Shown here: piece by piece, positions 11,552 to 38,141 of the stretch
Numbering within the stretch: position 1 is the stretch's first letter
Layout: every line of letters begins with the position of its first letter
Assembly (NCBI RefSeq): GCF_900129315.1
Contig: NZ_FQUS01000026.1
Coordinates: 1-58,950 of the forward strand
DNA length: 58,950 bases
Reading direction: 5' to 3'
Source: Fodinibius roseus
GTDB taxonomy: Bacteria; Bacteroidota; Rhodothermia; Balneolales; Balneolaceae
The notes under the pieces: generated by a model
Database searches by the model: none
Told to the model about the DNA's origin: nothing
Seen by the model: the letters and a program-made list of their open reading frames with translations, nothing else
Position numbers and translations under genes: made by a program

Positions 11552-11597
11552 CCCCCAAAATTTTTGAGATAAGATGAATATCAAAACGACAAATACC

Positions 11598-12692
11598 ATG
11601 AAAAGGAACCAAATATTTACGACCACCGCCAAGCTGTTGGCAGTCGTACTGCTTTCTTTTTCGGCCTATTCGTGCAGTTCACCGGAAGAACCCCCGCAGG
11701 AAACTGAAAATCCTGTCACGGTGGCCATAGAAACGGCGGAACGTAGTCAAATGCCAGCTTCGTACCATTTTTCAGGGACCGTCAAAAGCGAACATACGGT
11801 ACATCTCAGTACCAAAGTGATGGGAAAGATTACGCAGCTGGATGTGGAGGCCGGGGATTTTGCCCGGAAGGGAGACGTACTGGTACGTATCAAAGACGAT
11901 AACCTGCAGGCACAGAAAAACCAGGTGGAGGCGAACCTGGCACAGGCTCGTTCAGCCCTGCAGAATACCGAAACCAACTACAAGCGCCTGAAGGCCCTGC
12001 ATGAAAAAGGGAGCGCCACCCAAAAAGAATTCGATGACATTAGTACCCAATACGAGTCGGCTAGGGCAAATGTAACCGCCCTCAACGGAAAGCTGCAGGA
12101 AATCAACGATATGCTGGATTATACGGTGCTGGAAGCTCCCTTTAACGGCTACGTGGTTGCAAAGCAGGTTTCGCAGGGCGACATGGCGGGACCCGGACAG
12201 CCGCTCATATCTTTTGAACAGGAAAAGGGAATGAAGGTGATAGTAACGGTGCCGGAGACGGAAATTGCTCTGTTTAGTCTTAATGATACGGTGTCGGTGG
12301 ATGTTAAAGCGGCCGGGCGGCAACAGCTTGCCGGTGTAGTATCCAGTGTAAATCCTTCAGGCAGCCGGGCAAGCCGTCAATTTATGGTGGAAGTAAGGTT
12401 GCCGGAGTTGAGCAGGAATCACGGCCTTAAATCAGGAATGTTTGCCGAAATCGGGCTCGGGTCTGTCTCAGATTCTTCGTTGACCGTACCCAAAACCGCC
12501 ATTGTAGAGCGGGGGCAGCTTACCGGCCTGTACACACTTACCGACGATTCAGAAGTACTGCTTCGCTGGGTTCGTCTCGGAGATTCAAGCGGGGACCAGG
12601 TTGAGGTACTGTCAGGTCTGGCGCCGGGCGAACGATATGTATCGTCTTTTGGAGCCCCGCTTCGCGAAGGACAAAAAGTGAATGCACAGTAA
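11598..12692 (+). CDS. RND efflux periplasmic adaptor (membrane fusion lipoprotein)
   Basis: From ATG 11598 the protein has 364 residues with a lipobox (SAYSC, Cys ~26); ATG 11574 is also open. It has the HlyD/AcrA plan: a lipoyl half-motif (VHLSTKVMGKITQLDVEAGDFARKGDVLVRI), a coiled-coil hairpin (~95-165), a second lipoyl half (YTVLEAPFNGYVV...QGDMAGPGQPL) and a beta-barrel plus membrane-proximal domain. It links the TolC-like channel upstream with the RND permease 23 bases downstream. Confidence 0.93.
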   Translation: MKRNQIFTTTAKLLAVVLLSFSAYSCSSPEEPPQETENPVTVAIETAERSQMPASYHFSGTVKSEHTVHLSTKVMGKITQLDVEAGDFARKGDVLVRIKDDNLQAQKNQVEANLAQARSALQNTETNYKRLKALHEKGSATQKEFDDISTQYESARANVTALNGKLQEINDMLDYTVLEAPFNGYVVAKQVSQGDMAGPGQPLISFEQEKGMKVIVTVPETEIALFSLNDTVSVDVKAAGRQQLAGVVSSVNPSGSRASRQFMVEVRLPELSRNHGLKSGMFAEIGLGSVSDSSLTVPKTAIVERGQLTGLYTLTDDSEVLLRWVRLGDSSGDQVEVLSGLAPGERYVSSFGAPLREGQKVNAQ

Positions 12693-12715
12693 CAGCACAG
12701 AACGAAACAGATATT

Positions 12716-15700
12716 ATGAAAACCGGAATAGCAGGAAACATTGCAAAGGCCTTTATTGACTCAAAGCTGACACCACTGCTAATGGTGGTGTTTTTGGGAC
12801 TGGGTTTCTATGGAACCTATTTAACGCCCCGCGAGGAGGAGCCGCAAATTGATGTACCGATGGCTGATATCTTTGTCGGTTACCCGGGCGCTTCGCCAGA
12901 TGAGGTGGAAAAAAACATCTCCATACCGCTTGAAAAAGTGCTCTCAAATATTGAGGGAGTGGAATATGTCTATTCTACCTCCATGCCTGACCAGGCGATG
13001 GTCTCGGCCCGCTTCTATGTGGGCGAAGATGTGGAGCGAAGCCTGGTACGCTTGTATAACGAGCTGATGAAAAATATAGACCGGCTGCCTGAGGGGGCCA
13101 CCATGCCGATGGTCAAGTCGCGCTCCATCGACGACGTGCCCATTATGACGCTGACGCTCTGGAGCAAATCGTACAGCGATTTTGAGATCCGCCGTGTGGC
13201 TGATGAGCTGGCGCTGGAGATCAAACAAATCGAGAATGTTGCCCAGACCGATATCCACGGCGGGCGGACGCGCCAGGTTGAGGTCTCCCTCGACAAAAAT
13301 AGAATGGCCTCCTACGGTATCTCCCCGATGAAGGTAGCCCGGCAGATACAGGCGGCCAACCAGGAGCTTTCCTCGGGTTCATTCAGTAAAAATGACACGC
13401 AGTACCTGGTAGAAACCGGCAGTTTCTTTCGCAATGCCGAAGAGGTGCGCAACCTGGTGGTTGATGTACAGGGCGGCGACCCGATTTACCTGAAGAGTAT
13501 TGCGGAAGTGACCGACGGGCCGCAGGAACCGGGCGAATATGTTTCCTACGGGGTGGGAAATGCCAAAGCGGAGAGGACCGGAATGAATATCGGGGAATCC
13601 TATCCCGCGGTGACGCTTTCGATAGCCAAGCGTCCGGGTTCGGATGCCATGTTTATTGCCGAAAAAGTTCAGGAAAAAGTGGATAAGTTGGATGGCAACC
13701 TTATGCCTGCGGACATCACTGTGACGACTACGCGTAATTACGGAGAGACCGCCGCCGCGAAAGTGCTTTCCCTGCTGGAACACCTGTTGGCTGCTATACT
13801 TGCGGTGACCGTGGTGGTTGCGCTGGCTATGGGATGGCGGGGTGGTCTGGTGGTCTTTTTGTCGGTACCGGTTACCTTCGCCCTGACCCTGTTCCTTTAC
13901 TACATGTTCGGCTACACCCTGAACCGCATCACCCTTTTTGCGCTGATATTTGTAACAGGTATTGTGGTGGACGACTCCATTATTATAGCTGAAAATATGC
14001 ACCGCCACTTTAAGATGCGCAAGTTGCCGTTGAAGCAGGCGGCGATTGCAGCAATTAACGAGGTAGGAAACCCGACCATCCTGGCTACCTTCACCGTCAT
14101 TTCGGCGGTACTACCGATGGCTTTTGTATCAGGTTTGATGGGGCCGTATATGAGCCCTATGCCCATTGGCGCATCGTTGGCTATGATCTTTTCTCTGGTC
14201 GTAGCACTGGTTATCACTCCGTGGCTGGCTTACATGCTACTGCCCCATGTGAAGCCGGAAAAAGACGAGAGCGGCGCCGACAAGGAGTACCGGCTTGAAG
14301 AGACCCGTATCTACAAATGGTACTCGCGCATTGTGAAACCGCTGCTGGAGAGCGTAACCAAGCGATGGGTGTTTATCGGAGGCGTAACCGCTTTGCTTTT
14401 CGCCTCAATGCTGCTCTTCGTATTTCGCATGGTGGAAGTAAAAATGCTGCCTTTTGACAATAAAAACGAGGTACAGCTCATCATCGATATGCCCGAAGGC
14501 ACCACCCTGGAGCGGACCAATGCCGTGGCACGGGAAGTGGGATTAAGTTTAAAAGAAGTGCCGGAAATTCTTGATTATCAAATTTATGCCGGTACCAACG
14601 CCCCTATTAATTTCAACGGACTGGTACGGCACTACGACCTGCGCAACGGGGCAAATATCGCGGATATACAGGTGAACCTGATGGATAAAGGGAATCGCAG
14701 CGATCAAAGCCATGCTATTGCCAAGCGCATCCGTCCCATCGTGCAAAAGGTGGGCGATAAATACAACGCCAACATCAAAGTGGTAGAAGTACCGCCGGGC
14801 CCGCCCGTACTATCCACGCTGGTTACCGAAATATATGGCCCTGATGAAGAACAGCGCCAGAGGGTAGGGCGTAAGGTGAAAAATATCTTCGAAGATATGG
14901 AGGGAATTGTTGATGTAGACTGGATGAAGGAAGCGCCCCAGACCAAATATAAGATGGATGTGAATACCGAAAAAGCGATGCTTTCCGGCATTTCATCCCG
15001 GCAGGTGGTGCAGACGGTCAGGATGGCGCTGAGCGGCAAGCCTGTTTCACGACTTTATAGCGAAAAGGAGGTCAATGATATCCCTATTGTTTTAAAGCTA
15101 TCTGAAAACGAGCGTTCCGGAATTGAGCAGTTAAGCCGCCTTTATATGCAGTCGGCTTCCGGCGCTATGATTCCGGTAACAGATTTAGTAACGGTGACCG
15201 AAGATACGTTGGAGCCGAGTATCTATCGCAAAAACCAGCGCCGGGTGTTGTATGTAACGGCCGAGGTGGCCGGGGCCATCGAGAGCCCGGTCTATGCCAT
15301 CCTGGATACCGGCGAAAAGATTGATGCCATTGATATGCCTGCCGGTTACAACCTGGATCAGATTTTTGCAGGTCAGCCCTTCATGCAGGAGGATTATACG
15401 CTGAAGTGGGACGGAGAATGGCAGATTACCTACGAAGTATTTCGTGACCTCGGGATCGCTTTCGCCGTTGTACTGGTGATTATCTATATGCTCATTATCG
15501 GCTGGTTCCAGGATTTTATGGTCCCCATTATTATGATGATCGCTATTCCGCTTTCACTGGTCGGTATTCTCATCGGGCACTGGCTGCTGGGGGCTTTCTT
15601 TACAGCAACCTCGATGATCGGTATGATCGCCCTGGCAGGAATCATGGTGCGCAATTCCGTGCTGTTGATTGACTTTATCGAAATACGGCTTAATGAAGGA

Positions 15701-15946
15701 GAAAAGATGAAGCAGGCGGTTATTGAAGCCGGGGCCGTGCGCAGTATGCCTATTTTGTTGACGGCCGGTACGGTGGTTATAGGGGCATTTGTAATACTGT
15801 TCGATCCGATTTTCCAGGGATTGGCCATTTCTCTGATGGGCGGAGCAATAGCGTCAACCGCCCTTACGCTGCTGATGGTTCCGCTAATTTATTACATGGT
15901 GGAAAAGAAAGCCGATCAGCTGAAAGACAGCAACACGGAAACATAG
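12716..15946 (+). CDS. RND-family efflux permease
   Basis: This 1076-residue inner-membrane proton-driven pump has twelve predicted helices, with two large periplasmic loops after TM1 and TM7. The proton-relay aspartates are in GIVVDDSIIIAENMHRH, and the repeat-specific GIMVRNSVLLIDFIE motif is present near the C-terminus. Length and motifs fit the AcrB/ACR_tran superfamily. There is no clear Met-triad run as in CusA, so drug, lipid or sulfur-compound export is as likely as metal export. It is the core of the efflux operon. Confidence 0.92.
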   Translation: MKTGIAGNIAKAFIDSKLTPLLMVVFLGLGFYGTYLTPREEEPQIDVPMADIFVGYPGASPDEVEKNISIPLEKVLSNIEGVEYVYSTSMPDQAMVSARFYVGEDVERSLVRLYNELMKNIDRLPEGATMPMVKSRSIDDVPIMTLTLWSKSYSDFEIRRVADELALEIKQIENVAQTDIHGGRTRQVEVSLDKNRMASYGISPMKVARQIQAANQELSSGSFSKNDTQYLVETGSFFRNAEEVRNLVVDVQGGDPIYLKSIAEVTDGPQEPGEYVSYGVGNAKAERTGMNIGESYPAVTLSIAKRPGSDAMFIAEKVQEKVDKLDGNLMPADITVTTTRNYGETAAAKVLSLLEHLLAAILAVTVVVALAMGWRGGLVVFLSVPVTFALTLFLYYMFGYTLNRITLFALIFVTGIVVDDSIIIAENMHRHFKMRKLPLKQAAIAAINEVGNPTILATFTVISAVLPMAFVSGLMGPYMSPMPIGASLAMIFSLVVALVITPWLAYMLLPHVKPEKDESGADKEYRLEETRIYKWYSRIVKPLLESVTKRWVFIGGVTALLFASMLLFVFRMVEVKMLPFDNKNEVQLIIDMPEGTTLERTNAVAREVGLSLKEVPEILDYQIYAGTNAPINFNGLVRHYDLRNGANIADIQVNLMDKGNRSDQSHAIAKRIRPIVQKVGDKYNANIKVVEVPPGPPVLSTLVTEIYGPDEEQRQRVGRKVKNIFEDMEGIVDVDWMKEAPQTKYKMDVNTEKAMLSGISSRQVVQTVRMALSGKPVSRLYSEKEVNDIPIVLKLSENERSGIEQLSRLYMQSASGAMIPVTDLVTVTEDTLEPSIYRKNQRRVLYVTAEVAGAIESPVYAILDTGEKIDAIDMPAGYNLDQIFAGQPFMQEDYTLKWDGEWQITYEVFRDLGIAFAVVLVIIYMLIIGWFQDFMVPIIMMIAIPLSLVGILIGHWLLGAFFTATSMIGMIALAGIMVRNSVLLIDFIEIRLNEGEKMKQAVIEAGAVRSMPILLTAGTVVIGAFVILFDPIFQGLAISLMGGAIASTALTLLMVPLIYYMVEKKADQLKDSNTET

Positions 15947-18063: not shown

Positions 18064-19089
18064 TTAATCTGAGTTGGTAATTTGTTGTTTGGGATAAATA
18101 TCATTCCAACTCCAGCCATTGCTTTGCAACAGTCCATTCAATGAACACCTGCGTTCGTGAATTTCTTTCTGGCAGGAAGAAATTGCAGATTTTTGTTCCA
18201 ATGGAATCTTGTTGGATTTCAGATACTGAAGATGCGGTGTATTGTGAGTAATTTCAAAATTTTTTTGCTGATAATGATGACTGGCTGTATCAAGAAACTT
18301 TGTAATCGCATCCCTGAGCGGTCTAATATCTTTTTCTCGCCATGTTTTTGATTCAACGTGATGGGTCAGAATAGTTAATGCTTCATCTACATTTACCAGA
18401 TTTATGGATAGTGATTCATCCCTGGCAGTACTGTAAAAATAATGCACAGCCGGGTGAGCATAGTGATTCTGGTTATGTTTGTTGATCATCTCCCTGAGTC
18501 TGGCAGAAATATCAGTCAAAATAGAGAAGCGCTCTCCATCATAGAAACTGGCTGCAAGTTCTTCGGGAGAATCTCCCATATTTGTTATAAAAAGGCTGAG
18601 ATTTCTCTTGTGGATCACCGCCGTGGTCAGGCTCATCAGATAAGTCATGGCGGTAGTTATGAAAATAAAGCCGGCAAACGAAAAGGCGGCCATTATAATT
18701 TGCCACCCTTCGGAACCCGGTACATAGTCACCTACTCCCAGGGTGGAAAGGGTATATCCGCTTACATACAGCTTGGTAAGAACGCTTGCGGCAGATCCTG
18801 TGCCCGCCTCTACTATAGCGCGGGGATCGCTGACGAGCAGCAGGAAAAATCCGATCCATAAAAGCCCGATCCACATTCCAAGAAGAAAAAGGATATGCGT
18901 TACCCCGGAGTAGCGCAACGCGTTTCTCCGGGGGACATACCTGTTCAAAAAAAGAAAAAGAGACGAGAGGAACCGGCTCGTCAACCGGGACAGGTATCCT
19001 GCCCCGTTGAAGGAAAGCGTGGTATAGAAAAAGTCGTAAGCAATTACGACGATTATGGTGATACCTAAAATAAGATAAAATGTATGCAT
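18064..19089 (-). CDS. Two-helix potassium/ion channel family protein
   Basis: The 341-residue protein has hydrophobic helices at ~3-22, ~65-87 and ~130-158 and a pore loop with the selectivity-filter-like STLGVGDYVPG (~115-125), close to the TVGYGD of K+ channels. The cytoplasmic C-terminal half is mostly helical with no recognised nucleotide-binding domain. It probably conducts K+ or another monovalent cation. It lies directly downstream of the complex I-like operon on the same strand, with 246 bases and a palindromic repeat between. Confidence 0.78.
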   Translation of the reverse strand: MHTFYLILGITIIVVIAYDFFYTTLSFNGAGYLSRLTSRFLSSLFLFLNRYVPRRNALRYSGVTHILFLLGMWIGLLWIGFFLLLVSDPRAIVEAGTGSAASVLTKLYVSGYTLSTLGVGDYVPGSEGWQIIMAAFSFAGFIFITTAMTYLMSLTTAVIHKRNLSLFITNMGDSPEELAASFYDGERFSILTDISARLREMINKHNQNHYAHPAVHYFYSTARDESLSINLVNVDEALTILTHHVESKTWREKDIRPLRDAITKFLDTASHHYQQKNFEITHNTPHLQYLKSNKIPLEQKSAISSCQKEIHERRCSLNGLLQSNGWSWNDIYPKQQITNSD

Positions 19090-19335: not shown

Positions 19336-20697
19336 TCAAGCCAGAAACCACTGCACGCCAATTCCCGCAGCTATAGTTAAGGCAAATGTGCTTATCCATA
19401 CGAAGGATGTTCCCGGAGCGTAAGTTTTGATTTGCCTATCTTCGGTCTCTTGAAAAAACATGGGTACCACAATGCGCATATAGACCGCCAGAGAGATGGC
19501 ACTGTTCAGGATGGCAACAACCGCCAGCCAGCTATACCCGGATTCTATGGCTGCCCCAAACAGTAGAAATTTACCGGCAAAGCCAGCCAGGGGCGGCATC
19601 CCCACCAGGGAGAGCAGGAAAATGGTCATGCCCACGGCCTGCCAGGGGCGGCGTTTTCCCATGCCTTTAAAATCGTCCAGCCGGGTACCTTCTCCCAAAG
19701 TAATGGCAAAAGCGCCGGTGTTCATAAGGGCATAGGCTACCCCGAATACCACCAGTGAATCGATCGCAAGCGAACTTTGTCCCACTCCGATAACGCCCAA
19801 CACGTAATACCCTGACTGGGCAACGGTGGAGTAGGCCAGCAGCCGGATCACATTGTTCTGCCAAAGGGCCACCACATTGCCAAAGGTCATGGACAGCGCG
19901 GCCAGTACGGCCAGGATCAGCGGCCAGTCAACAAGGGAAACCGGAAGATCACGAACCACCTGTGCGAGTGCAAACAGGGCTCCTATCTTGGGAACTACCG
20001 ACAGATAGGCGGCGATGGAGACGGGGGCGCCTTCGAAGGTGTCGGGTATCCAGAAATGGACGGGAAACAGGGAAGCCGCATAGCCGATTCCAATTACCAG
20101 GGTAATAAAGCCGAACATAACGGCATAAGAGGATAAGTCAGGATTGTTAATCCCGGAAATCAGCGTGGTGCCGGCAAGGCCCGCCCAGTAGGTTAGCCCG
20201 AAAAGCATGATGGCTCCGGCAACCGATCCGTAAATAAAATACTTCATTGCTCCTTCGCTGGAAGGGCCGTTTCTGGGGTGAGCTGCCATGGCCATACCGG
20301 CAAGAGTACCAATAAGCAGGCCCAGTACAATGAACATGAGATCTCCGCTGCCCGCCAAAATCATGGCTCCCAAGGCTGAAAAGCCCATCAGACTGTATAT
20401 GGTGCCTTCGCGGGCCGAATCTTTCAGCTCCGACCGGCCCAGCAATGCAAAAAGGATGGTTGCCGGTCCCAGAATGATGACGGCCCACAAGCTGAGTGCG
20501 TCAACACGGAAGGTAGTGGAAAAAGCGGTGGTATCTGTCCCCAGCAAATCTACGGCAACACCGGTGGCTGTGAGCATGCCAACCACCAAAGCCCATAGTG
20601 CAGCCCGGGGGAGTCGGGCCATTTCCAGGCATAACACGATAGCCGTGGTGGATAAAACAATAAGCTGTGGTAAAATATTCAGTAAATCTGTGGCCAT
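19336..20697 (-). CDS. NuoN-like antiporter-type subunit
   Basis: The 453-residue polytopic protein of the NuoN/Mrp antiporter family includes SLFPVHFWIPDTFEGAPVSIAAYLSVVPKIGALFAL, GNVVALWQNNVIRLLAYSTVAQSGY and SLVGMPPLAGFAGKF. Compared with E. coli NuoN, the TM5 Glu position appears hydrophobic (LGLLIGTLAG) and the TM7 Lys appears to be Ala (GYAASLFP); the TM8 Lys (VPKIG) is kept. This subunit may therefore not pump. It is the last gene of the A-BD-H-J-K-L-M-N operon; NuoM ends 5 bases upstream. Confidence 0.88.
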   Translation of the reverse strand: MATDLLNILPQLIVLSTTAIVLCLEMARLPRAALWALVVGMLTATGVAVDLLGTDTTAFSTTFRVDALSLWAVIILGPATILFALLGRSELKDSAREGTIYSLMGFSALGAMILAGSGDLMFIVLGLLIGTLAGMAMAAHPRNGPSSEGAMKYFIYGSVAGAIMLFGLTYWAGLAGTTLISGINNPDLSSYAVMFGFITLVIGIGYAASLFPVHFWIPDTFEGAPVSIAAYLSVVPKIGALFALAQVVRDLPVSLVDWPLILAVLAALSMTFGNVVALWQNNVIRLLAYSTVAQSGYYVLGVIGVGQSSLAIDSLVVFGVAYALMNTGAFAITLGEGTRLDDFKGMGKRRPWQAVGMTIFLLSLVGMPPLAGFAGKFLLFGAAIESGYSWLAVVAILNSAISLAVYMRIVVPMFFQETEDRQIKTYAPGTSFVWISTFALTIAAGIGVQWFLA

Positions 20698-20702
20698 TGT
20701 TA

Positions 20703-22181
20703 TTACAGTCCGAAGAAATTAGTGGTAGCGTGAATCATCGAGAGCAGGGAATCGGGATAGATACCAATCAGTATGGTAGCTAATATCAAAGGAACAATAG
20801 CCCACAGCTCCCGGCTTCCCAAATCTTTAACTCCGCTAAATCCTTCCGCCAGGGTACCTAAAAATACTTTTTGAATAGCCCGCAGGTACAGGGCTGTGGT
20901 AATCGGCAAGCCAATGATAATGATGCCGACGGCGATCGGGTACACATCGAAGCCGCCTAAAAAGATTTGAAACTCGGCAGGGAAATGAGCCAGCCCGGGC
21001 AACCCCAGAGAAGCAAAGGCCGCGAGCATAAAAAGTCCGCTTAAAATCGGATAGGCTTTTAGCAGCCCGCTCATTTCGTTCATTTCCCGCGTACCAGTGC
21101 GATCCTGGAGAGCTCCTACCAGCAGGAAAAGCACCCCTGTAACCACACCGTGGCTTATCATTTGAAGTACCGCTCCGTCCAGGGCAATCATGCCGGATGT
21201 GGTAGTGGTGACGGCTGCTATGGCCACACCGAATATCAGATACCCCATGTGGTTTACACTGGTGTAGGCCACCATCCGCTTGATATCGGTTTGGGCCAGG
21301 GCTACGAAAGCCCCGTACAGCGCTGTAAAGACGGCAACGACGATGACGTAGGGTGCAAATTCACGAAATGCATCAGGCGTCATTTGCAAAGGAAAGCGAA
21401 TAAAACCATAGGTGCCCAGTTTCAGCAACACCCCCGCCAGGATGGCACTTCCCGCAGCAGGTGCTTCGGTGTGGGCCAAAGGAAGCCAGGTGTGGAACGG
21501 GAAAAGCGGTGTTTTAATAGCAAAAGCGATAAATAATCCCCAGAACGTAAGCGTAGCTGCAAGTCCGGTTATGGTGGGATTTGCTACCAACTGTTGTATG
21601 TCAAACGTATTGGGATCGGAAAAAAGATACAGCGCCAAAAACGCCAGCAGCAGAAACAAACTGCCTACCAGGGTATAGATAAAGAAAGTTAAAGCCGCCT
21701 TTTTGCGATGTTCGTGCCCCCATTTGGCTATTATGAAATACATGCCAACAAGAGTGATTTCAAAAAACACGTAAAAAAGGAAGAGGTCAAGCGAAAGGAA
21801 TACCCCAAGACAGGCGGTCTCCAGCATCAGAACCAGTTCAATAAAGATATTGGCATTATCCTTGATCTTTGCAGAAAAAATCAGCGAGGTCAGGAACAAA
21901 AATGCCGTCAACAGCACCAGGGGAAAACTGATGCCGTCCACCCCGAGCCGGTAAGCTATGCCTAAGGATGGTATCCAGCTGAGTTCTTCAATTTGTGACA
22001 AACCACTGCCTATACCCTGTATCCAGATCATAATAGCAGCCAACAGGGTGAGTGAGGCAAAGGCTATCCCAATACCATAGGCGGTTTTGGTTTGTTTGGG
22101 GCGGAGTACCATAATGACAAGGGCCCCAAAAACCGGCAGGAATGTAGTGATAGAGAGTAATGGTAATGATGAAAAATCCAT
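20703..22181 (-). CDS. NuoM-like antiporter-type subunit
   Basis: This 492-residue membrane subunit has family motifs FYVFFEITLVGMYFIIAKWG (TM5 Glu), FAIKTPLFPFHTWLPLAHTEAPAAGSAILAGVLLKLGTYGF (two channel lysines), KRMVAYTSVNHMGY and ASLGLPGLAHFPAEF. The residues thought essential for proton transfer in complex I are all present. It lies 3 bases after NuoL and 5 before NuoN. Confidence 0.93.
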   Translation of the reverse strand: MDFSSLPLLSITTFLPVFGALVIMVLRPKQTKTAYGIGIAFASLTLLAAIMIWIQGIGSGLSQIEELSWIPSLGIAYRLGVDGISFPLVLLTAFLFLTSLIFSAKIKDNANIFIELVLMLETACLGVFLSLDLFLFYVFFEITLVGMYFIIAKWGHEHRKKAALTFFIYTLVGSLFLLLAFLALYLFSDPNTFDIQQLVANPTITGLAATLTFWGLFIAFAIKTPLFPFHTWLPLAHTEAPAAGSAILAGVLLKLGTYGFIRFPLQMTPDAFREFAPYVIVVAVFTALYGAFVALAQTDIKRMVAYTSVNHMGYLIFGVAIAAVTTTTSGMIALDGAVLQMISHGVVTGVLFLLVGALQDRTGTREMNEMSGLLKAYPILSGLFMLAAFASLGLPGLAHFPAEFQIFLGGFDVYPIAVGIIIIGLPITTALYLRAIQKVFLGTLAEGFSGVKDLGSRELWAIVPLILATILIGIYPDSLLSMIHATTNFFGL

Positions 22182-22184
22182 GAT

Positions 22185-24071
22185 TTACAGATAGGTTAGT
22201 GATAAAATAATTAAAGCTAAGATCATACCGTACACCGACCACGCCAGCTCCCGGTGAACCAGTCCCGATTGAATGCTCCGGCTGTAATGGCCCAGTCGCT
22301 GGACGGAGGCTACGAGCCCGGCAATCCACTCCACAATGCCGCGATCGTCCGTTATTTGGGTCCATTGGCTGATGTTCAGATTGAATGCCCCGATTTGGTT
22401 AACCACAAATGACACCGCACGGTCCGGAACGTCCGCCAGCCAGCGCGCCAACATCAAAAACGCCTTGCCAATCTCAAAGACAGATTGAAGGAGAAATTGT
22501 TCGATCAGGTTTGCGGCGGCTGCCAGCATCTGAAACGGTTGCACGATAACATTGGTGTAGCCGCCTGCTACGGGATAGTTATCCCGGAAAAATATCCACA
22601 CCCGGTTTTTAAAGACGGGAGCGGTGGCAACCCAGCCTGCTGCCAAACCAAGAAAAGCAGCTCCAAGACCGCTTATCATGGCAATGTTGTCTTTTGGAAT
22701 GGAAAAACCTGACGTTTCAACCAAAGGATCCAGAAACAACCAGCCTGCAATAACAGCCGTTACCAGGGTTAGAAATCCGAGATGCATCCAGGACAGTTTT
22801 TTTGGCTTTTCTTCCGGTTCGCTGTGTCCTTTCCATAAAATTCCGAATGCGCGGCCCATATAGATAGCAGTAAAAAAGGCTCCAATCAGCACAGCGGGAA
22901 AGTACCATGAGGCCGGGTCGGCCTGCAGGCCTGCCGTCAGGATGGCATCCTTCGACCAAAAGCCGATTAATGGAGGGATCCCGGCCAGGGCCAGCCCGGA
23001 CACAGCGAATCCTGAAAAAGCCAGTTTCAGTTTCTTTCCGGAGCCTTTGAGTTTTTCGTAATTTGTGGAATGCATCTCGTGCTGAAAGATTCCGGCTCCC
23101 AGGAACAAGCTGCTTTTCATAAAGGCGTGGGCAATCAGGTGGGCCAGGGCCGCGGCCGGATACCCGGCGCCAATAGCCAGCGCCATAAAACCAAGCTGAC
23201 TTGAGGTGGACGCGGCAAGCATGCGTTTGATATCTTCGGAAAATATGGCGGTTGCACCGGTGAGCAGGATGGTTATTCCTCCCACTAAGCCGATCCAGAA
23301 CAGGGCCTCCGGCGGGAAAAGAGGGAAGGCTTTAAGCAGCAGAATAATACCTGCCGCCACCATTGTGGCCGAATGCAGCAGGGCCGAAACAGGTGTTGGG
23401 CCTGCCATGGCTGCCGAAAGCCAGCTCTGGAAAGGAACCTGTGCCGATTTACCCATTACCGCCAGCAGCAGAGCCAGGGTTCCCACTACAGAAACGCCCT
23501 GTACGGGTTCAGCCAAAATCTGGCTGGACCCGCCGGCAAGAATGATAACAAACACCCCGACATAGAGCCCAAGGTCGGCCACACGGTTCATAGTAAACGC
23601 TTTGTTTGCGGCGTCACCAGCTTCTTTCTTCCAGTACCAGGTACCGATCAGCAAATAGGAGGCAAAGCCCATAACTTCCCAGGCTATCACAAACAAGATC
23701 CAGTCTCCGGCTAACACCAACAGCTGCATGGCTCCCATAAACAGCGTTATGCCGCTCCAAAAACGGAGTTTTCCTTTTTCTTCTTTCATATACCCGATGG
23801 CATACACAAAAATGGAGGTGGTAATCACAGCGACAACCAGGGAAAGTACGGCTGCCATTTCTGTGGCTTCAAGGCGAAAGAGCATTCTCGGAAGCCCGGC
23901 AAATTGCAGTTGAGTAACAGCGCCGTTCAAAGCGGCCCTAAAAAGCAGTATCGAACCGGCCAGCGAGCCTGCTGCTCCGGTTAAGGCTGCATACCCTATT
24001 TTTTTTCGGGTTACGATAATCAAGGCACTTGCCGCCAGGGGAGCTAATATGGTAAGTAATATTGCTGCCAT
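22185..24071 (-). CDS. NuoL-like antiporter-type subunit
   Basis: This 628-residue membrane subunit has WEVMGFASYLLIGTWYWKKEA (TM5 Glu), MGKSAQVPFQSWLSAAMAGPTPVSALLHSATMV (channel Lys and His), DIKRMLAASTSSQLGF and a C-terminal tail long enough for the lateral helix that spans the arm in complex I. It appears fully equipped for proton translocation. It follows NuoK by 7 bases. Confidence 0.93.
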   Translation of the reverse strand: MAAILLTILAPLAASALIIVTRKKIGYAALTGAAGSLAGSILLFRAALNGAVTQLQFAGLPRMLFRLEATEMAAVLSLVVAVITTSIFVYAIGYMKEEKGKLRFWSGITLFMGAMQLLVLAGDWILFVIAWEVMGFASYLLIGTWYWKKEAGDAANKAFTMNRVADLGLYVGVFVIILAGGSSQILAEPVQGVSVVGTLALLLAVMGKSAQVPFQSWLSAAMAGPTPVSALLHSATMVAAGIILLLKAFPLFPPEALFWIGLVGGITILLTGATAIFSEDIKRMLAASTSSQLGFMALAIGAGYPAAALAHLIAHAFMKSSLFLGAGIFQHEMHSTNYEKLKGSGKKLKLAFSGFAVSGLALAGIPPLIGFWSKDAILTAGLQADPASWYFPAVLIGAFFTAIYMGRAFGILWKGHSEPEEKPKKLSWMHLGFLTLVTAVIAGWLFLDPLVETSGFSIPKDNIAMISGLGAAFLGLAAGWVATAPVFKNRVWIFFRDNYPVAGGYTNVIVQPFQMLAAAANLIEQFLLQSVFEIGKAFLMLARWLADVPDRAVSFVVNQIGAFNLNISQWTQITDDRGIVEWIAGLVASVQRLGHYSRSIQSGLVHRELAWSVYGMILALIILSLTYL

Positions 24072-24392: not shown

Positions 24393-24911
24393 TTACTTCT
24401 CCACGCTGTTTTTAATTGACAATGCGACTGCAATAGAGGCGATCATTCCGGTAAGAATGGTCACCCCGGCGGTTTCGAAGATCATCATCGACCGCTTCAG
24501 AATTTCCATACCCAGCAGCCGGTTTTGCTCATGCGGCCCCGGGAACTGAGTAGCTATTGTACCCCAGTCGGCGGCAAGAGCGGCACCGACTATCAATACA
24601 GTTACAATTACGCCCGCTGCTATGGAGATATTTTTCTGGTGATACATATCCATCTGTCCCAGCCCGCCCGGATCCATCATGTACATCATCATAAAGATGG
24701 CCATAATGCTCATTTCGGTTCCCATCATCATGATTTGCAGAACACCCAAAAATTCGGCTTCCATAACGAGAAATAATATGCCGATGGCCACCATGGACGC
24801 CAGAAGTGAGAGAGCGGAACGGACCATGGAGCTGGTCATGAAGACGCGCCACCCGAACCAGATGGCCGCCAGGCCGAATATAATAAGTAATATGAGTTGT
24901 ACAGATATCAT
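24393..24911 (-). CDS. NuoJ-like subunit
   Basis: The 172-residue protein has five predicted helices. It carries the family pattern VRSALSLLASMVAIGILFLVMEAEFLGVLQIMMMGTEMSIMAIFMMMYM, a Met-rich variant of the usual QIIVYVGAIMVLFLFVIML region. The usual Y-VGA kink segment is altered to MMMGTEM, which is odd for NuoJ. Its start overlaps the NuoH stop by 4 bases, indicating translational coupling. Confidence 0.85.
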   Translation of the reverse strand: MISVQLILLIIFGLAAIWFGWRVFMTSSMVRSALSLLASMVAIGILFLVMEAEFLGVLQIMMMGTEMSIMAIFMMMYMMDPGGLGQMDMYHQKNISIAAGVIVTVLIVGAALAADWGTIATQFPGPHEQNRLLGMEILKRSMMIFETAGVTILTGMIASIAVALSIKNSVEK

Positions 24912-25810
24912 AACAGCAAGACTACTCCTACTTGAAAAATGTTATAAAGAGCTAAAGGCACCCCGTACTTCCAGTTGTATTCCAACAGGTGGTCGTGCCG
25001 GATGCGCGGCATAAAACGGCCAATGGCAAAAAAGGAGGCCGCCACCAGCAGGGTCTTCAGAAAGGTCCAGACAAAATCGGGCAGCCAGGGCCCCATCCAT
25101 CCTCCCAGGTACAGTACCACTACCGCTGCCGATACGGTGAACACCAGGGTAAGCCGCCCCAGGCGAAACAGCAGCTTGCGGGCGCCGGTGAGATCAGCCC
25201 AGACGCCTCCTGCCAATTCTCCCCTGGCTGTCGGCAGGTCGAAAGGGGGAAGAAAGGTAATAGCCAGCGCTGAAATATAGAATAAAATAAAGCCCACCGG
25301 CTGGTACAAAATGTTCCACAGCCCTTGTTGGGATTCGACGATATCGGTTAAAAACATCGATTCGGCCCGCATCACCGTAGCCGTCAATGCCATAACCACC
25401 GGCATGGAGTAGGCGATAAGCTGGGCCAGCGCACGCCATCCCCCTACCATGGCGTACACACCGTTTATGGCCCACCCGGCCATCAAAAGTGCTACCATCA
25501 CATACACCAGGGCTGCATTGATAAACAGGGCGCCTGTCCCCAGATCGATGACCACGCTGCCCCGGCCGAAGGGCAGGATGGAAATGGTGAGTAGTATCAC
25601 TCCGATAAACAGAACCGGGGCGGTTTCAAAAAAGACTTTGTCGTGCTTCCGGGTTTTGATCTCCTCCCGGGCAAACAGCAGTAAAAATGAGCGAACGGGG
25701 CCGCCCCAGTTTACATGTCCCGTCACCGACCAGCGTTCCATTACTGCTGCCACATAAACACCGCTCAGAAACAGGAGGATAATGATAAAACCGGTTAAAA
25801 AAGGAGTCAT
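24908..25810 (-). CDS. NuoH-like subunit
   Basis: The 300-residue polytopic protein has the ER-containing first loop (AAVMERWSVTGHVNWGGPVRSFLLLFARE), the quinone-chamber loop FDLPTARGELAGG and a later LLEYNWKYGVPLALYN. In complex I this subunit links the membrane arm to the B and D subunits. The first-loop GPNRVG motif is altered to GPVRSF. It begins 12 bases after the His-rich B/D fusion, its expected physical partner. Confidence 0.88.
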   Translation of the reverse strand: MTPFLTGFIIILLFLSGVYVAAVMERWSVTGHVNWGGPVRSFLLLFAREEIKTRKHDKVFFETAPVLFIGVILLTISILPFGRGSVVIDLGTGALFINAALVYVMVALLMAGWAINGVYAMVGGWRALAQLIAYSMPVVMALTATVMRAESMFLTDIVESQQGLWNILYQPVGFILFYISALAITFLPPFDLPTARGELAGGVWADLTGARKLLFRLGRLTLVFTVSAAVVVLYLGGWMGPWLPDFVWTFLKTLLVAASFFAIGRFMPRIRHDHLLEYNWKYGVPLALYNIFQVGVVLLL

Positions 25811-25822
25811 AAATAGCGTCTG

Positions 25823-28069
25823 TTAATGATGAATTTCCCAGGGTGAAATGTCCAGTGAAGCTACAGCCGTCAGCGCATCGGCCAGCTCGTACTGTTCGGT
25901 TAGGTGTTGTATGATGCCCGCCAGCGCTTCCGATGGCGTGTTAAGCTGCATGTGAGCCAGTTTGCCTTCATGAATATGAAATTTAAGCGTCACGGTACCG
26001 CGGGGGCTCTCGATGCGTGCGATGCCATTTCCCATTCCGGCAGAGGGTATGTCGATTTTTTGTGAAGATTCACCGCCGGAATCATTTTCCGCCCTGGCTA
26101 TAAACCGAAGGCTTTGTTCCATTTCGTCCAGCCGTACCATCAGCCGGCTCCAGGCGTTATTTCCGGCAGCGGTTACAGGAGTCCAGCCGGCTTGCTGATA
26201 TACAGGTTCCTCTAAGCGGTGGTCTTTTTCAATGCCCGCTGCCCGTGCCACCGGGCCTGTGATCTCATCCGGCAGCTGACCGGAAATCTGATCTTTGCCT
26301 CTGCTTCCATGGCCGTGATCGTGGCTTTCATGACCCGCGTGGCCGCTGTGCTCATGGTGATGATGTTCGTGCCCTTCATGTCCTCCATGCTCATGATCTT
26401 CATGTCCATGATTATGCCCGCTATGCCTTGAGTGATCGTGCCCGCCATGCTCACGATGTTCATGCCCCTTGTGCTCTTCGTGGCTATGACCTGCATGATG
26501 GTGTTCGTTACCCGCTTGATCTCCGTGGTTATGGCCGTGTCCGCTATGATCGTGGACCTCATGTCCGTGACCCAGGTTGTGATCTCCCATTTCCACCCGG
26601 TGTTTTCCGGCGGCGGATAATTTTAATTTCAAATAGGGCATCTTTTTTATACGGCTGATAAATTCGGAGAGCCGGCTGGCATTTCCGGCCCCGTTTTGGA
26701 AACGGTGGTAATGTTTTATAGCCCGATCCCGCATCCAGTCGCTGCCCAGTGCTGTGGCAAAAACAGCCAGCCAGTTCAGGTGACTGGTTATCCGCTTTTT
26801 TTCCAGCAGTACTGCCTCTGAAAGGGTCAGTGTGGAATCCGGCGTTTTACCGGAAAAGTTGGCCAGCGCTTTTTGTGCCAGCAGCCGGTAGGTAACCGGT
26901 GCCAGAGGATGGGCCGCCGCAAGATACTCAGGCAGGGACGCAGGGTCGTTCAGGACGGATGCCGGCAGGTTGTGTCCCAACAGGCCTTGGCCAGCCTCTG
27001 CTATGACGACGGTATCTCCGTCGAGCTTCATGGAGAGGCGCAACCCGCCCGGCAGGCCCGGGTGAAAGGGGCCAAAATGTACATCACTCCACTCCATCGG
27101 CAGTCCGTCGGGGCTGCGGGGGAGATCTTTGGTCATGGCTATCATCGACATAAAGCCCGGGCCGTGGTCGTGCCCGCCATGCCCGTGATCGCCATGGCCC
27201 GAATGATCGTGCTGCCCGCCATGTCCAGGCCCTCCGTGGCCAGAGTGGTCGTGAGCAGAATGATCATCATCCTGGTGCTCCTCTCCATGGTTGTGTCCCT
27301 TGTGCTGATGACCTTCATGCCCGTGTTCATGTTCTCCATGATCATGATGTCGATGCCCTTCGTGTTCGCTATGTGAGTCGTGTTGATGGCTGTCGTGGCT
27401 GTGCTTGGCCGGTGCTCCGTGGCAGTCTTTGGTATCTCCGGCTTCGGCATCATCAGAATGGTCGTGGTGGTGATTTTTACGATCTCCTTGATCATGGTTG
27501 TGGCCTCCATCCGTTTCACCGTGATGATGGGCGGAATGATCATGCCCTTCATGACCGTGATCGTGCGACCCGTGGCCGCCATGGTCATGCATATGGCCCT
27601 GCTGCTGACCGGCTTCTTCTATTTTGCTGACCACTGGTTCCGGCCGGTACGGCTCCGCCTTTTCTGTCCACGAGTAGCCGCTCAGGCATTCGCGGGCGGC
27701 AGGTATTGCGGTTCCAAGAAAATCTTTTTCCAGGGGTACGTGAACGTCCGGGTGTGGAAGCGGGTCAAGATGTTCCGGCCCGGCGATAACCAGCACCCGG
27801 GGGCGCGGCATCTGTGCGTAAACGGTGGCCGCCCGTTCAGCCAGTTCTGTACTTACATCGCCAATAAGCAGCAGTACATTGGCCTCTTTGGGGCTGTCTG
27901 CCAGCCGGGCTTCTCCGTGCAAAGGTTCAGATTGATACATGCGCAGCAGGTCGGCACCCGGAACCGGAAATATTACCAGCTCCTGTGAAGCGGCTTTTGC
28001 CAGCCATCGCCGCCAGAAATTCATAGTTCCTTTTCGTGCTCCGTATTTCATAGTCGTTTCCATTGGCAT
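25823..28069 (-). CDS. NuoB/NuoD-like fusion with two long His-rich blocks and no cofactor ligands
   Basis: The 748-residue frame is numbered from ATG 28069. ATG 28024 (residue 16), with AAAAGGAA 7 bases before it, is the better start. Residues ~16-130 resemble NuoB (SPKEANVLLLIGDVSTELAERAATVYAQMPRPR), but all four cluster-N2 cysteines are absent. Residues 159-302 are a block with ~49 His (HDHG, GHEGHDH units). Residues ~315-493 resemble NuoD (FGPFHPGLPGGLRLSMKLDG; RITSHLNWLAVFATALGS). Residues 497-588 form a second block with ~37 His. Residues 603-748 complete NuoD (GPVARAAGIEKDHRLEEPV; MEQSLRFIARA; SLDISPWE). The NuoD quinone-binding His of HPSTHG is lost. It probably docks on NuoH and binds Zn, Ni, Co or Cu instead of passing electrons; this is inference. 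Confidence 0.85.
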   Translation of the reverse strand: MPMETTMKYGARKGTMNFWRRWLAKAASQELVIFPVPGADLLRMYQSEPLHGEARLADSPKEANVLLLIGDVSTELAERAATVYAQMPRPRVLVIAGPEHLDPLPHPDVHVPLEKDFLGTAIPAARECLSGYSWTEKAEPYRPEPVVSKIEEAGQQQGHMHDHGGHGSHDHGHEGHDHSAHHHGETDGGHNHDQGDRKNHHHDHSDDAEAGDTKDCHGAPAKHSHDSHQHDSHSEHEGHRHHDHGEHEHGHEGHQHKGHNHGEEHQDDDHSAHDHSGHGGPGHGGQHDHSGHGDHGHGGHDHGPGFMSMIAMTKDLPRSPDGLPMEWSDVHFGPFHPGLPGGLRLSMKLDGDTVVIAEAGQGLLGHNLPASVLNDPASLPEYLAAAHPLAPVTYRLLAQKALANFSGKTPDSTLTLSEAVLLEKKRITSHLNWLAVFATALGSDWMRDRAIKHYHRFQNGAGNASRLSEFISRIKKMPYLKLKLSAAGKHRVEMGDHNLGHGHEVHDHSGHGHNHGDQAGNEHHHAGHSHEEHKGHEHREHGGHDHSRHSGHNHGHEDHEHGGHEGHEHHHHEHSGHAGHESHDHGHGSRGKDQISGQLPDEITGPVARAAGIEKDHRLEEPVYQQAGWTPVTAAGNNAWSRLMVRLDEMEQSLRFIARAENDSGGESSQKIDIPSAGMGNGIARIESPRGTVTLKFHIHEGKLAHMQLNTPSEALAGIIQHLTEQYELADALTAVASLDISPWEIHH

Positions 28070-28432
28070 TTATTGGCGTTTGAGTCCGAGTTGAGTCCAG
28101 GTATATATAAGCCCGAGAAACAGGATCATAAGAAAAACACCCATATCCAACAAAGCTACAAGTCCGACTTCCTTATACACCACTGCCCAGGGATACATGT
28201 AGGCCATCTCCATATCAAAGGCCAAAAAGAGCAGGGCATAGCCGTAGTAGTGTACATGATAACGCAGCCAGGCCGGTTTGGGTGCCAGGTTTCCGCTTTC
28301 GGCGGGGATGTTCTTGCCCGGCTCGTCCAGCGTTTGGCCCAGCGACTGCTTGATAAGATAAAGCATCCATACCAGGCCCGCCGTGGCAACGAGCATGCCC
28401 AATAAGATGAGGTATTGTGTTAAGGGAGCCAT
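28070..28432 (-). CDS. NuoA-like subunit
   Basis: The 120-residue protein has three helices and the diagnostic segment RYHVHYYGYALLFLAFDMEMAYMYPWAVVYKEVG. The YECG loop of ordinary NuoA is replaced by AESGN, so its conserved Cys is lost, in line with the loss of redox residues in the neighbouring B/D fusion. It is the first gene of the complex I-like operon. Its 203-base leader holds the TTTAAG box (28635-28651) and an 8-bp-arm inverted repeat at 28473-28495. Confidence 0.9.
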   Translation of the reverse strand: MAPLTQYLILLGMLVATAGLVWMLYLIKQSLGQTLDEPGKNIPAESGNLAPKPAWLRYHVHYYGYALLFLAFDMEMAYMYPWAVVYKEVGLVALLDMGVFLMILFLGLIYTWTQLGLKRQ

Positions 28433-30010: not shown

Positions 30011-30238
30011 AATGTCATTAGATTCTGTGAGTCGGGTTGTTTTTTTAAGATTGTTTGGTAGCAAATAACATATGACTTGGGAAAACAAGCAGTTACCAAC
30101 TTTTTATGATTTCCAAAGTATATCAGTAAAATTAAATAATGCAATTTTCAGGTTTTCCAAAAATACACGATAGGCGGACTTTAAAAATGATCCAAGACAT
30201 CTTCTGACTCATTTGCAGTTACCAAAACATCAAATAAT

Positions 30239-35435: not shown

Positions 35436-38141
35436 TTAGTTGGCTTTTGAAAATTTTGGTTGGAACTTGCGCAGCCGGTTGGCATTGGTAACAACTGTTA
35501 CAGAACTAAAGGCCATGGCGGCGGCTGCAATCAATGGAGAGAGCAGTAGACCGAACAGCGGGTAGAACACTCCTGCGGCAATCGGCAGTCCGGCCGTGTT
35601 ATAGGCAAAGGCGCCAAACAGGTTCTGTTTGATATTTCTCATGGTCGCCTTGGAAAGCTGGATCGCCAGTACCACGCCTTTCAGGCTGCCTTTGATCAGG
35701 GTGATATCGGAGGCCTCGATCGCCACGTCTGTTCCGGTGCCGATCGCCAGCCCGATGTCGGCCTGGGCCAGCGCGGGCGCATCGTTGATGCCGTCACCCA
35801 CCATGGCAACCCGTTTGCCTTCGTTCTGCAGTTTCTGCACATTCATCGCCTTGTCTTCGGGCAGCACTTCGGCCATCACGCGGTCCACGCCTACCTGCCG
35901 GGCAATAGCATCGGCGGTACGCCGGTTGTCACCGGTTATCATGACGACCTCAAGGCCCATTTTCTTAAGTTGAGCTATTGCCTCTTTGGAGTCGGCTTTT
36001 ACGGTATCGGCCACAGCCACGATTCCAGCGGCCTTGCCGTCCACGGCGACAAACATCGGGGTTTTACCGTCATCGGCCAGGGTTACGCTCTGATCCTGCA
36101 GGCCGCCGACATCAATATTGTTATCGAGCATCATTTTAATATTTCCGAGGAGTACCTTGCGTCCTTCTACATTGGCTTCTACACCGTGGCCGGGTACGGC
36201 GTTAAAGTTTTTGGGGTCGAGGAGCGTGATGCTGCGGTCTTCAGCGCCCCTGATGATGGCTTCGCCCAGCGGGTGTTCGGAAGCGCGCTCCACGCTGGCG
36301 CTCCAGGCCAGTATATCTTCTTCACTAAATCCATTTGCAGTAATCACATCAGTCAGCGAGGGCTGGCCTTCGGTAATAGTACCGGTTTTGTCCAGTACAA
36401 TGGCGTCAAGCTTTTGTGCGGTTTCGAGCGCCTCGCCACTGCGAATCAGGATGCCGTTTTCGGCGCCTTTACCTACACCCACCATCAGAGAGATCGGGGT
36501 AGCCAGACCCAGCGCGCAGGGGCAGGCGATAATCAGTACGGTCACGGCTACAACGAGCGCGTAAATAAGTGCGGGAGCCGGACCTACAAGATACCAGATT
36601 ACGAAAGCAGCGATAGCCAAGATAATGACGGCGGGCACGAAGTAGCCGGAAACTCTGTCCACCACCCGCTGAATGGGCGGCTTGGAACTCTGGGCTTCCT
36701 CGACCATCTGTACAATCTGGGCCAGGGCGGTGTCTTTGCCCACTTTGGTGGCCCGGAATTTAAATGAACCCGTTTTATTGATGGTGGCGCCGATCACCTC
36801 ATCACCAGTATGTTTTTCAACCGGAATGGATTCCCCGGTGATCATAGATTCGTCAATAGCCGAAGAGCCTTCCACGATTTCGCCGTCAACCGGTATCTTC
36901 TCACCGGGACGAACTACAATTATATCGTCCAATACTACTTCTTCGACGGGTATATCTTGTTCTTTCCCATCACGCACTACACGCGCGGTTTTGGCCTGCA
37001 AGCCCATCAATTTCTTAATGGCCTCAGAACTGCGCCCTTTGGCTCTAATCTCTAAAGCCAGGCCTAAATCTACCAGTGCTACAACCACCGCTGTAACATC
37101 ATAAAATACTTCAGCCAGTGCTTCAGTTGGAAAGATTTCCGGGAATAATACTGCTACCGTAGAGTACAGCCAGGCTGCCGTAATACCCACGGCAATAAGG
37201 GTATGCATGTTCGCCGACCGGTTTTTGAAAGCTGCCCACGCTCCGGTATAGAAATGTGAACCTGCCCAGAACATTACCGGCAGGGTTACAACGCCCATCG
37301 AGAACCAGATCCAGTACAGCAGGTCGGTGCCCCGCTGGAACTGGTCCGGCAGGCCCAGGAAATCGGGATAGCTGAAAATCATCACAGGTATGGAGATCAC
37401 TGCGGAAAAAATAAATTTCCACATCAATGATTTATATTCTTTTTCGCGGGCCAGCTGATTCTCGTCCACCGGTTCTTCTTTGGTTTTGAGCTTCTCTTGT
37501 TTGCCGGTTTTTTTATCGTCTTCAACCGGATCGGATAGTCGGGAAGCCTCAAAGGTTTCATATCCCAGCCGTTCAATAATGTTCTTGATTGCGGGCATGT
37601 CCACCTCTGAGGGCAGGTATTTGACAACGGCCGATTCGGTCCCCAGGTCGACACTGGCGCTGAGCACACCGGGGGTCTGGTCAAGCTCGCGCTCAATCTG
37701 GGAGACGCACGAATTGCAGTGCATGCCTCCGATGCCCAACCGGAGTGTGGCATAACCTGCCTTATAGCCTGATTTCTTAATGGCCCCGATGATCTGTGTT
37801 ACCGACGTTTCAGAACGATCGAACTCTACATAGGCCTTTTCGGTGGCTCCGTTCACCACTGCTTTTTGAATACCAGGCAGCCGGCGGATCTCCTTCTCGA
37901 TCGTAACCGCGCAGGAAGCACAGCTCATATCCACGATCGGCAGCTGCAATTTTTCCACCCCGTTGGGGGTGATGTTGTAGGTTGCTCCCGCTTTATCTTT
38001 CCCGGTAACAAATTTTTCCGGGTTCTCTTCAAATTCGTTTTTGCATTTTTCCGAGCAAAATTCGAAGGTCTCTCCCTGGTACGTACTTTGCCAGTCGGAG
38101 GGACTCTCCACTTCCATTCTGCAAACAATATCTTTAGCCAT
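35436..38141 (-). CDS. copA: YHS-HMA-HMA copper-exporting P1B-ATPase
   Basis: The 901-residue Cu(I)-exporting ATPase has a YHS domain (~1-45, [10 protein letters not shown]) fused at the N-terminus, then two HMA domains with DMSCASC (~74) and GGMHCNSC (~141). The membrane and soluble core has TGES, CPC in [34 protein letters not shown] and [10 protein letters not shown]. All catalytic motifs are present. The start is preceded by GGAG. The promoter has a TTTAAG box and a leader nearly identical to that of the porin. The cupredoxin follows in the same operon. Confidence 0.95.

Follow-up and report, generated by a model that had tools for sequence, protein, structure and literature searches.

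Which task is performed by a set of complex I-like genes whose NuoB and NuoD are fused into one protein with two very large histidine-rich blocks? The question arises from an operon on contig NZ_FQUS01000026.1 of Fodinibius roseus; the window, that is, the whole stretch of DNA which we analyzed, comprises 58,950 nucleotides. The operon consists of eight genes in the order A-[BD]-H-J-K-L-M-N, all on the minus strand, and a canonical nuo set is present separately on other contigs of the same genome. The first-pass annotation had described the fusion and had proposed that metal ions, bound at the site that normally holds the cluster N2 and quinone, drive or gate the membrane arm. The features to which we refer are the following.

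28070..28432, minus strand: nuoA-like gene, first gene of the operon (PF00507, E = 3.3e-25)
25823..28069, minus strand: BD, NuoB-NuoD fusion of 748 amino acids, gene 2 of the operon
27668..28021, minus strand: NuoB-like fold of BD, residues 17-134, without the N2 cysteines (profile comparison and fold)
27164..27595, minus strand: histidine block 1, residues 159-302, 49 His, at the B-D junction (counts and AlphaFold2 model)
26609..27154, minus strand: NuoD-like fold, part 1, residues 306-487 (model and structural match)
26306..26581, minus strand: histidine block 2, residues 497-588, 37 His, a loop inside the D fold
25826..26263, minus strand: NuoD-like fold, part 2, residues 603-748 (PF00346 with best stretch 603-662, model and structural match)
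24908..25810, minus strand: nuoH-like gene without the quinone-loop motif
24393..24911, minus strand: nuoJ-like gene with a methionine-rich helix 3
24636..24755, minus strand: NuoJ residues 53-92, the methionine-rich helix 3 followed by an MDM.HQ loop
24079..24387, minus strand: nuoK-like gene
22185..24071, minus strand: nuoL-like gene, channel residues kept
20703..22181, minus strand: nuoM-like gene, channel residues kept
19336..20697, minus strand: nuoN-like gene, equivalents of Glu133 and His305 changed
18064..19089, minus strand: K+-channel-like gene after nuoN (PF07885; near the operon in eight of nine Bacteroidota loci, the window included)
35436..38141, minus strand: neighboring P-type ATPase with YHS and two HMA domains
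11574..15946, plus strand: neighboring membrane-fusion protein (HlyD_D23) and AcrB-family RND pump with a putative metal role

The frame which encodes BD (25823-28069, minus strand) runs through 748 amino acids with zero internal stops, so that a broken reading frame is ruled out. The blocks hold 49 (residues 159-302) and 37 (residues 497-588) histidines, exactly as counted in the first pass, and the other 501 residues hold 19. For block 1, with 49 histidines in 144 residues, the binomial chance is 2.6e-41 at a histidine background of 2.5%. The histidine codons of BD are a mixture of CAT and CAC, which speaks against a simple DNA repeat as the source of the blocks, and a search for structured RNA at the locus gave no Rfam match at gathering scores. 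The AlphaFold2 model of BD, for which 11 relatives were included in the alignment, has pLDDT values below 50 in the junction stretch 156-314 (block 1) and in the stretch 488-594 within the D fold (block 2), and confident B and D folds flank both stretches. The histidine blocks are predicted to be disordered, and their place between confident folds in the model agrees with the earlier description of them as insertions in a folded core.

In structural comparison the D part matches NuoD chains with a Z score of 32.5 over 317 residues at 2.5 A. As a comparison with the whole model tests mainly residues 299-748, the B domain was folded separately; alone it matches NuoB chains with a best Z score of 11.7 (130 residues, 3.5 A), and all of its best 50 structural matches are complex I or NDH chains. 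The NuoB signal by sequence is weak (Pfam PF01058 with E = 0.092, below the cut-off; best NCBIfam E = 0.0011), and the assignment of the B part therefore rests on the profile comparison with NuoB (E = 1.3e-6), the fold and the gene order. On these grounds the NuoB/NuoD fusion claimed initially holds. The CxxC pairs of the [NiFe] hydrogenase large subunit are absent from the window BD, whose only cysteines are C128 and C216, and no HMBD domain (PF19335) exceeds the Pfam cut-off in this protein.

What is left of the redox machinery? Cysteine ligands of N2 occur in 0 of 25 B domains at each of the four columns, whereas the canonical NuoB of the same genome and that of E. coli have them. The catalytic histidine of NuoD (H38-equivalent) is replaced by proline in 18 of 18 proteins, and the Y87-equivalent is not tyrosine in 17 of 18; we take His38 and Tyr87 to be T. 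thermophilus numbering. The quinone-loop motif of NuoH is present in both canonical controls, E. coli and the genome's own canonical NuoH, and in 0 of 26 family proteins (18 closer ones and two sets of 4), with one of these (L101) being unreadable at the loop as its N-terminus is out of frame. NuoC, NuoE, NuoF, NuoG and NuoI are not among the operon genes in the window or in the annotated regions of its relatives, and in these same regions the operon has no NADH- or ferredoxin-binding subunit. With the N2 ligands, the NuoD histidine and the NuoH motif gone, BD does not offer the N2 and quinone site at which the first-pass annotation had placed the metal.

An order-level search gave strong fusion matches in 7 of 128 genomes, the other counted matches being ordinary NuoD. 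In a phylum-level sample the fusion was found in 4 of 395 genomes; distant copies may be missed in this search because the query was built from four Balneolaceae proteins and at most three candidates were scored per genome. When 84,980 species genomes were scanned for the pattern, 11 loci emerged, which belong to Bacteroidota, Chloroflexota MAGs and one Rubrobacter MAG. Twelve closer plasmids from Sulfitobacter, Paracoccus, Rubrobacter, Roseovarius, Nitratireductor and Thioclava carry the operon, and queries with NuoJ led to two more plasmid clades, one of Halomonas, Roseivivax and Acuticoccus and the other of Actinobacteria. Relatives thus occur both chromosomally and on plasmids in Bacteroidota, Chloroflexota, Actinomycetota and Proteobacteria, and the order A-BD-H-J-K-L-M-N is held in all loci long enough to tell. 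In a tree of H, L and M the family forms one clade on a long branch, the canonical proteins being sampled by two sequences only. The genus of the window includes Fodinibius salsisoli and F. sediminis; in the same tree the window operon stands away from these two species and beside copies of other genera, a placement which suggests transfer of the operon within Balneolaceae.

Several single loci show peculiarities. On the Sulfitobacter dubius plasmid (L111, 12581-14996) a frameshift divides the annotation of BD into two parts; close relatives have intact copies. Two Roseivivax marinus plasmids of one strain (L148 and L151) carry very similar operon copies with cueR and a heavy-metal ATPase. Upstream of the operon, L103, L111 and L112 contain a short gene for a "proton-conducting transporter membrane subunit" and a DUF6629 gene. 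NuoJ relatives from Mycobacterium plasmids are among the matches listed, and a hit of the phylum search (G324, open frame of 717 amino acids) sits in a nuo operon which has a long ORF at the place of B-C-D.

The B-D insert has at least 10 histidines in all 25 closer BD proteins, the weakest being that of Salegentibacter with 10, and the HMBD pattern is found in 13. When six BD relatives were compared with Pfam, HMBD was matched in the three with the pattern (L101, L103 and L104) and not in the other three. Delimited by a simple rule, block 1 measures 57-335 amino acids across 25 proteins and is fixed in position and variable in length, as had been anticipated. Block 2 is shared by 5 Balneolaceae copies; of the 23 BD proteins whose length allows a judgment, the other 18 lack it. 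In the four loci of Halomonas, Roseivivax and Acuticoccus the B-D linker is without a histidine run, and the NuoJ tails beyond residue 170 contain 6, 32, 16 and 33 histidines. The BD-like proteins of Gordonia and Curtobacterium have 32 and 17 histidines; the Arthrobacter linker has 5 His and 10 Met of the MDHGxM type, and for Pseudonocardia the protein as annotated is too short to be informative for the linker. Homologues without histidine blocks in the same operon context do exist in part, in that the sister clade of four loci (Halomonas, Roseivivax and Acuticoccus) has no linker run and has a histidine-rich NuoJ tail. These histidine runs are not essential, as block 2 is mostly missing, block 1 is HMBD-containing in 13 of 25 proteins and the linker of the sister clade is without a run. 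The proposed metal role of the blocks fares better, being supported by the metal-resistance neighbors and by relatives which have HMBD domains at this position. Histidine-rich stretches are able to bind Zn, Ni and Co, and HMBD is not specific for copper.

A second candidate metal site lies in the membrane. Helix 3 of NuoJ contains 9-11 methionines in 18 of 18 proteins as opposed to 1-3 in 31 canonical ones, and residue 59 is methionine in 18 of 18 as opposed to tyrosine in 31 of 31, these controls being E. coli and 30 Bacteroidota loci only. Met59 together with Glu62 holds in 26 of 26 proteins, including 8 of 8 from the two distant clades. The new conserved methionine columns number 3 plus the start in A, 4 in H, 13 in J, 5 in K, 0 in L, 1 in M and 4 in N, with E. 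coli as sole reference for J and K. The conserved methionines could serve packing instead.

The proton channels are mostly kept. In NuoL the residues E144, K229, H254, H334, K342, K399 and D400 are retained in 18 of 18 proteins, in NuoM E144, K234, H241, K265, H322, H348 and E407 in 17 of 17, and in NuoK E36 in 18 of 18 and E72 in 17 of 18. The channel positions of L, M and K mostly hold in the distant clades as well; among the exceptions there are Asp in place of M-E144, Glu in place of L-D400 and, for three of the four actinobacterial loci, Gln in place of L-H334. NuoN keeps Lys247 and Lys395, has lost Glu133 and His305 and has Lys217 only in some proteins, and one channel may therefore be impaired. 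In E. coli the charge relay is described as leading over H-Glu157, A-Asp79, J-Gly61, J-Glu55, K-Glu36, K-Glu72 and N-Glu133 (accessible part of PMC8357420). J-Glu55 is replaced by Gln in 18 of 18 closer loci and by a different residue in the 8 distant ones, and N-Glu133 by Leu or Val in 17 of 17 closer and by Leu in 8 of 8 distant loci. H-Glu157 is changed to Ser or Ala in 18 of 18 closer loci and to Ile or Met in the 4 Halomonas-type loci; it is retained in 4 of 4 actinobacterial loci, and the changes in the E-channel are thus not uniform. All 20 proteins compared keep A-Asp79 and A-Glu81; in the Halomonas-type clade Asp79 is changed to Glu.

In which genetic setting is the operon found? Copper or heavy-metal genes lie within about 14 kb of it in 10 of 12 closer plasmids, and the remaining two have metal-handling genes elsewhere on the plasmid. 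Among the chromosomal and MAG loci 10 of 14 have such genes nearby as judged by BLAST, and three of the four misses are on contigs shorter than 11 kb. Such genes are also present on 7 of 8 scored distant plasmids, three of which (two from one strain) have cueR beside the operon. Of the canonical nuo loci of the same genome, taken as control, 0 of 2 have metal genes. Loci in which the stretch read contained no metal gene are those of Gordonia and L087, three short contigs and 2 of the 12 closer plasmids. Annotated neighbors across the islands include multicopper oxidase, CopB, cupredoxins and cueR, and some islands contain CDF transporters and ArsR/SmtB regulators. The neighbors in the window are the YHS/HMA P-type ATPase, a YHS protein and the RND pump; HMA domains are matched at 11 places genome-wide, and the neighboring P-type ATPases were matched as heavy-metal ATPases and are putative copper pumps at most. 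As the islands also carry genes for other stresses (NhaA, APC permease, arginine deiminase and Lgt), copper is the best but not the sole reading.

The window itself contains APC permease, Lgt-like and NhaA-like genes at 28703-30088, 32094-32885 and 41154-42500, respectively. Genes of these types are also found on some operon-bearing plasmids, hinting that the window operon belongs to a larger shared stress island. The K+-channel-like gene after nuoN is perhaps a charge-balancing path; a potassium channel family gene also adjoins the Acuticoccus operon. The source soil of F. salsisoli is given, in the available part of its description, as containing copper slightly over the local reference range (PMC9909488).

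Compared with complex I (NDH-1), the operon has homologous A, H, J, K, L, M and N genes in the same order, the NuoB and NuoD folds and the main channel residues of L, M and K. It differs in having B and D fused and in being without C, E, F, G and I, the N2 ligands, the NuoD histidine and the NuoH quinone motif, and further by its metal stretch and the methionine-rich helix 3 of NuoJ. The energy-converting hydrogenase-related (Ehr) complexes, which are related to group 4 hydrogenases, are likewise complex I relatives held to lack catalytic metal ligands; we know of no comparable metal-binding insert or copper setting among them. The Mrp Na+(K+)/H+ antiporter resembles the operon in that homologous membrane subunits work without redox chemistry and that an ion site has been proposed at the J/K-like subunits (PMC7419157, in its accessible part). 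Unlike Mrp, the operon includes A, H and BD, and none of MrpE, MrpF and MrpG is found among its eight genes in the window or on the annotated plasmids; its candidate site is methionine-rich and not histidine-based, and the proposed ion is different.

Operons of this gene content have been reported. One is the "partial NDH-1 operon 2" of Salinispora (PMC3314556; Penn and Jensen 2012), another, nuoA-H-J-K-L-M-N, is that of Kocuria flava (PMC6002675), and both were read as a marine adaptation that concerns energy or sodium. According to the accessible parts of both papers the operons were judged to be horizontally acquired and have relatives in other Actinobacteria and in Proteobacteria; the word copper does not occur in PMC3314556. 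Judged by gene content, namely the same seven nuo genes, these operons are likely identical in kind to the one described here. Within the portions of the open-licence literature at hand we found no description of the loss of redox centers, of the metal-binding stretches or of the copper setting, and the available parts of PMC8478169, PMC8879329, PMC9909488 and PMC9044938 do not mention the operon.

We suggest that the operon encodes a redox-free descendant of complex I which works as an Mrp-like cation/proton antiporter and exports Cu(I), possibly also Ag(I), and we consider this reading somewhat more probable than not. Its footing, read from the sequences, consists of the residue losses and retentions, the metal-binding stretch in most loci, the methionine helix with its new glutamate and the metal-resistance setting of most loci; the exported ion, the direction, the coupling and the sidedness are what we infer. 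In Mrp the cation site is formed by MrpA E706, MrpC H37/H40 and MrpD E137 and is coupled to proton flow (PMC7419157), and the connection from the quinone cavity of complex I to its antiporter subunits is gated by helix 3 of ND6 (NuoJ; PMC7613608), as far as the accessible parts of these papers go. Since the gating helix now offers soft-metal ligands and the redox parts have been dropped, a proton-driven export of Cu(I) suggests itself. The disordered histidine-rich or HMBD stretch would collect cytosolic copper, which could enter near the MDM.HQ loop of NuoJ. It might then move along the methionine helix past J-Glu62 and K-Glu36, near the place where Mrp coordinates Na+ or K+, and finally exit while protons flow inward via the antiporter-like subunits. 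That this amounts to a new class of heavy-metal exporters, in which several protons move inward for each Cu(I) or Ag(I) ion that leaves along a ladder of NuoJ methionines, with members in at least four phyla on plasmids and chromosomes, is a tentative view to which we give nearly even chances.

The operon could also encode a Na+ (or K+)/H+ antiporter or a proton pump for saline life, in which the metal-binding stretches only buffer or regulate. Many hosts are indeed marine or saline, the membrane arm resembles Mrp, in Bacteroidota the operon is linked to a K+-channel-like gene, a further such gene adjoins the Acuticoccus operon, and this is the printed reading of the seven-gene partial NDH-1 operon in the accessible text of PMC3314556 and PMC6002675. 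However, it leaves unexplained the methionine-rich NuoJ helix, the HMBD and histidine stretches and the metal-gene neighbors including cueR, and the hosts Pseudonocardia, Arthrobacter and Curtobacterium are not listed as marine; we regard it as unlikely. The same antiporter design might serve Zn, Ni, Co or Cd instead of copper. The HDHG histidine runs look like those of zinc and nickel proteins, and CDF transporters and ArsR/SmtB regulators are found in some islands. Methionine ligands in the membrane, however, suit Cu(I) and Ag(I) better than divalent ions, and multicopper oxidase, CopB, cupredoxins and cueR are among the annotated neighbors, so that this variant seems somewhat more unlikely still.

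Two further readings keep the metal at BD or NuoJ and do without its transport. Copper bound there might be a signal which gates proton flow, and the metal-binding stretches, being extramembrane, predicted to be disordered and variable in place, would fit such a role. A gate, however, needs no conserved methionine-rich helix near the Mrp cation site, and we think this improbable. For the same reason, that is, the methionines gained by NuoJ helix 3, we favor the metal as the transported ion over a metal load which drives or gates the membrane arm; this part of the first-pass annotation now seems less likely, the helix 3 path itself being enriched in methionine. Closest to that initial idea is a redox pump in which the BD metal has replaced N2. 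Copper is redox active, but the catalytic histidine of NuoD and the quinone motif of NuoH are lost, the metal stretch is disordered and in one clade has moved to NuoJ, and the operon is without an NADH- or ferredoxin-binding subunit. Such a pump is in our view very improbable.

How the quinone cavity is coupled to the antiporter subunits is a long-standing question in complex I. Here the redox chemistry is gone, the linking subunits H, A, J and K are rebuilt and the proton channels are mostly kept. If the proposed Cu(I) export is true, nature would in this operon have run the complex I experiment in reverse, an ion taking the place of the electron. A plasmid-borne proton-driven copper transporter would then join the P-type ATPases and the RND pumps, and some plasmid genes labeled as NADH-quinone oxidoreductase subunits would be misnamed.
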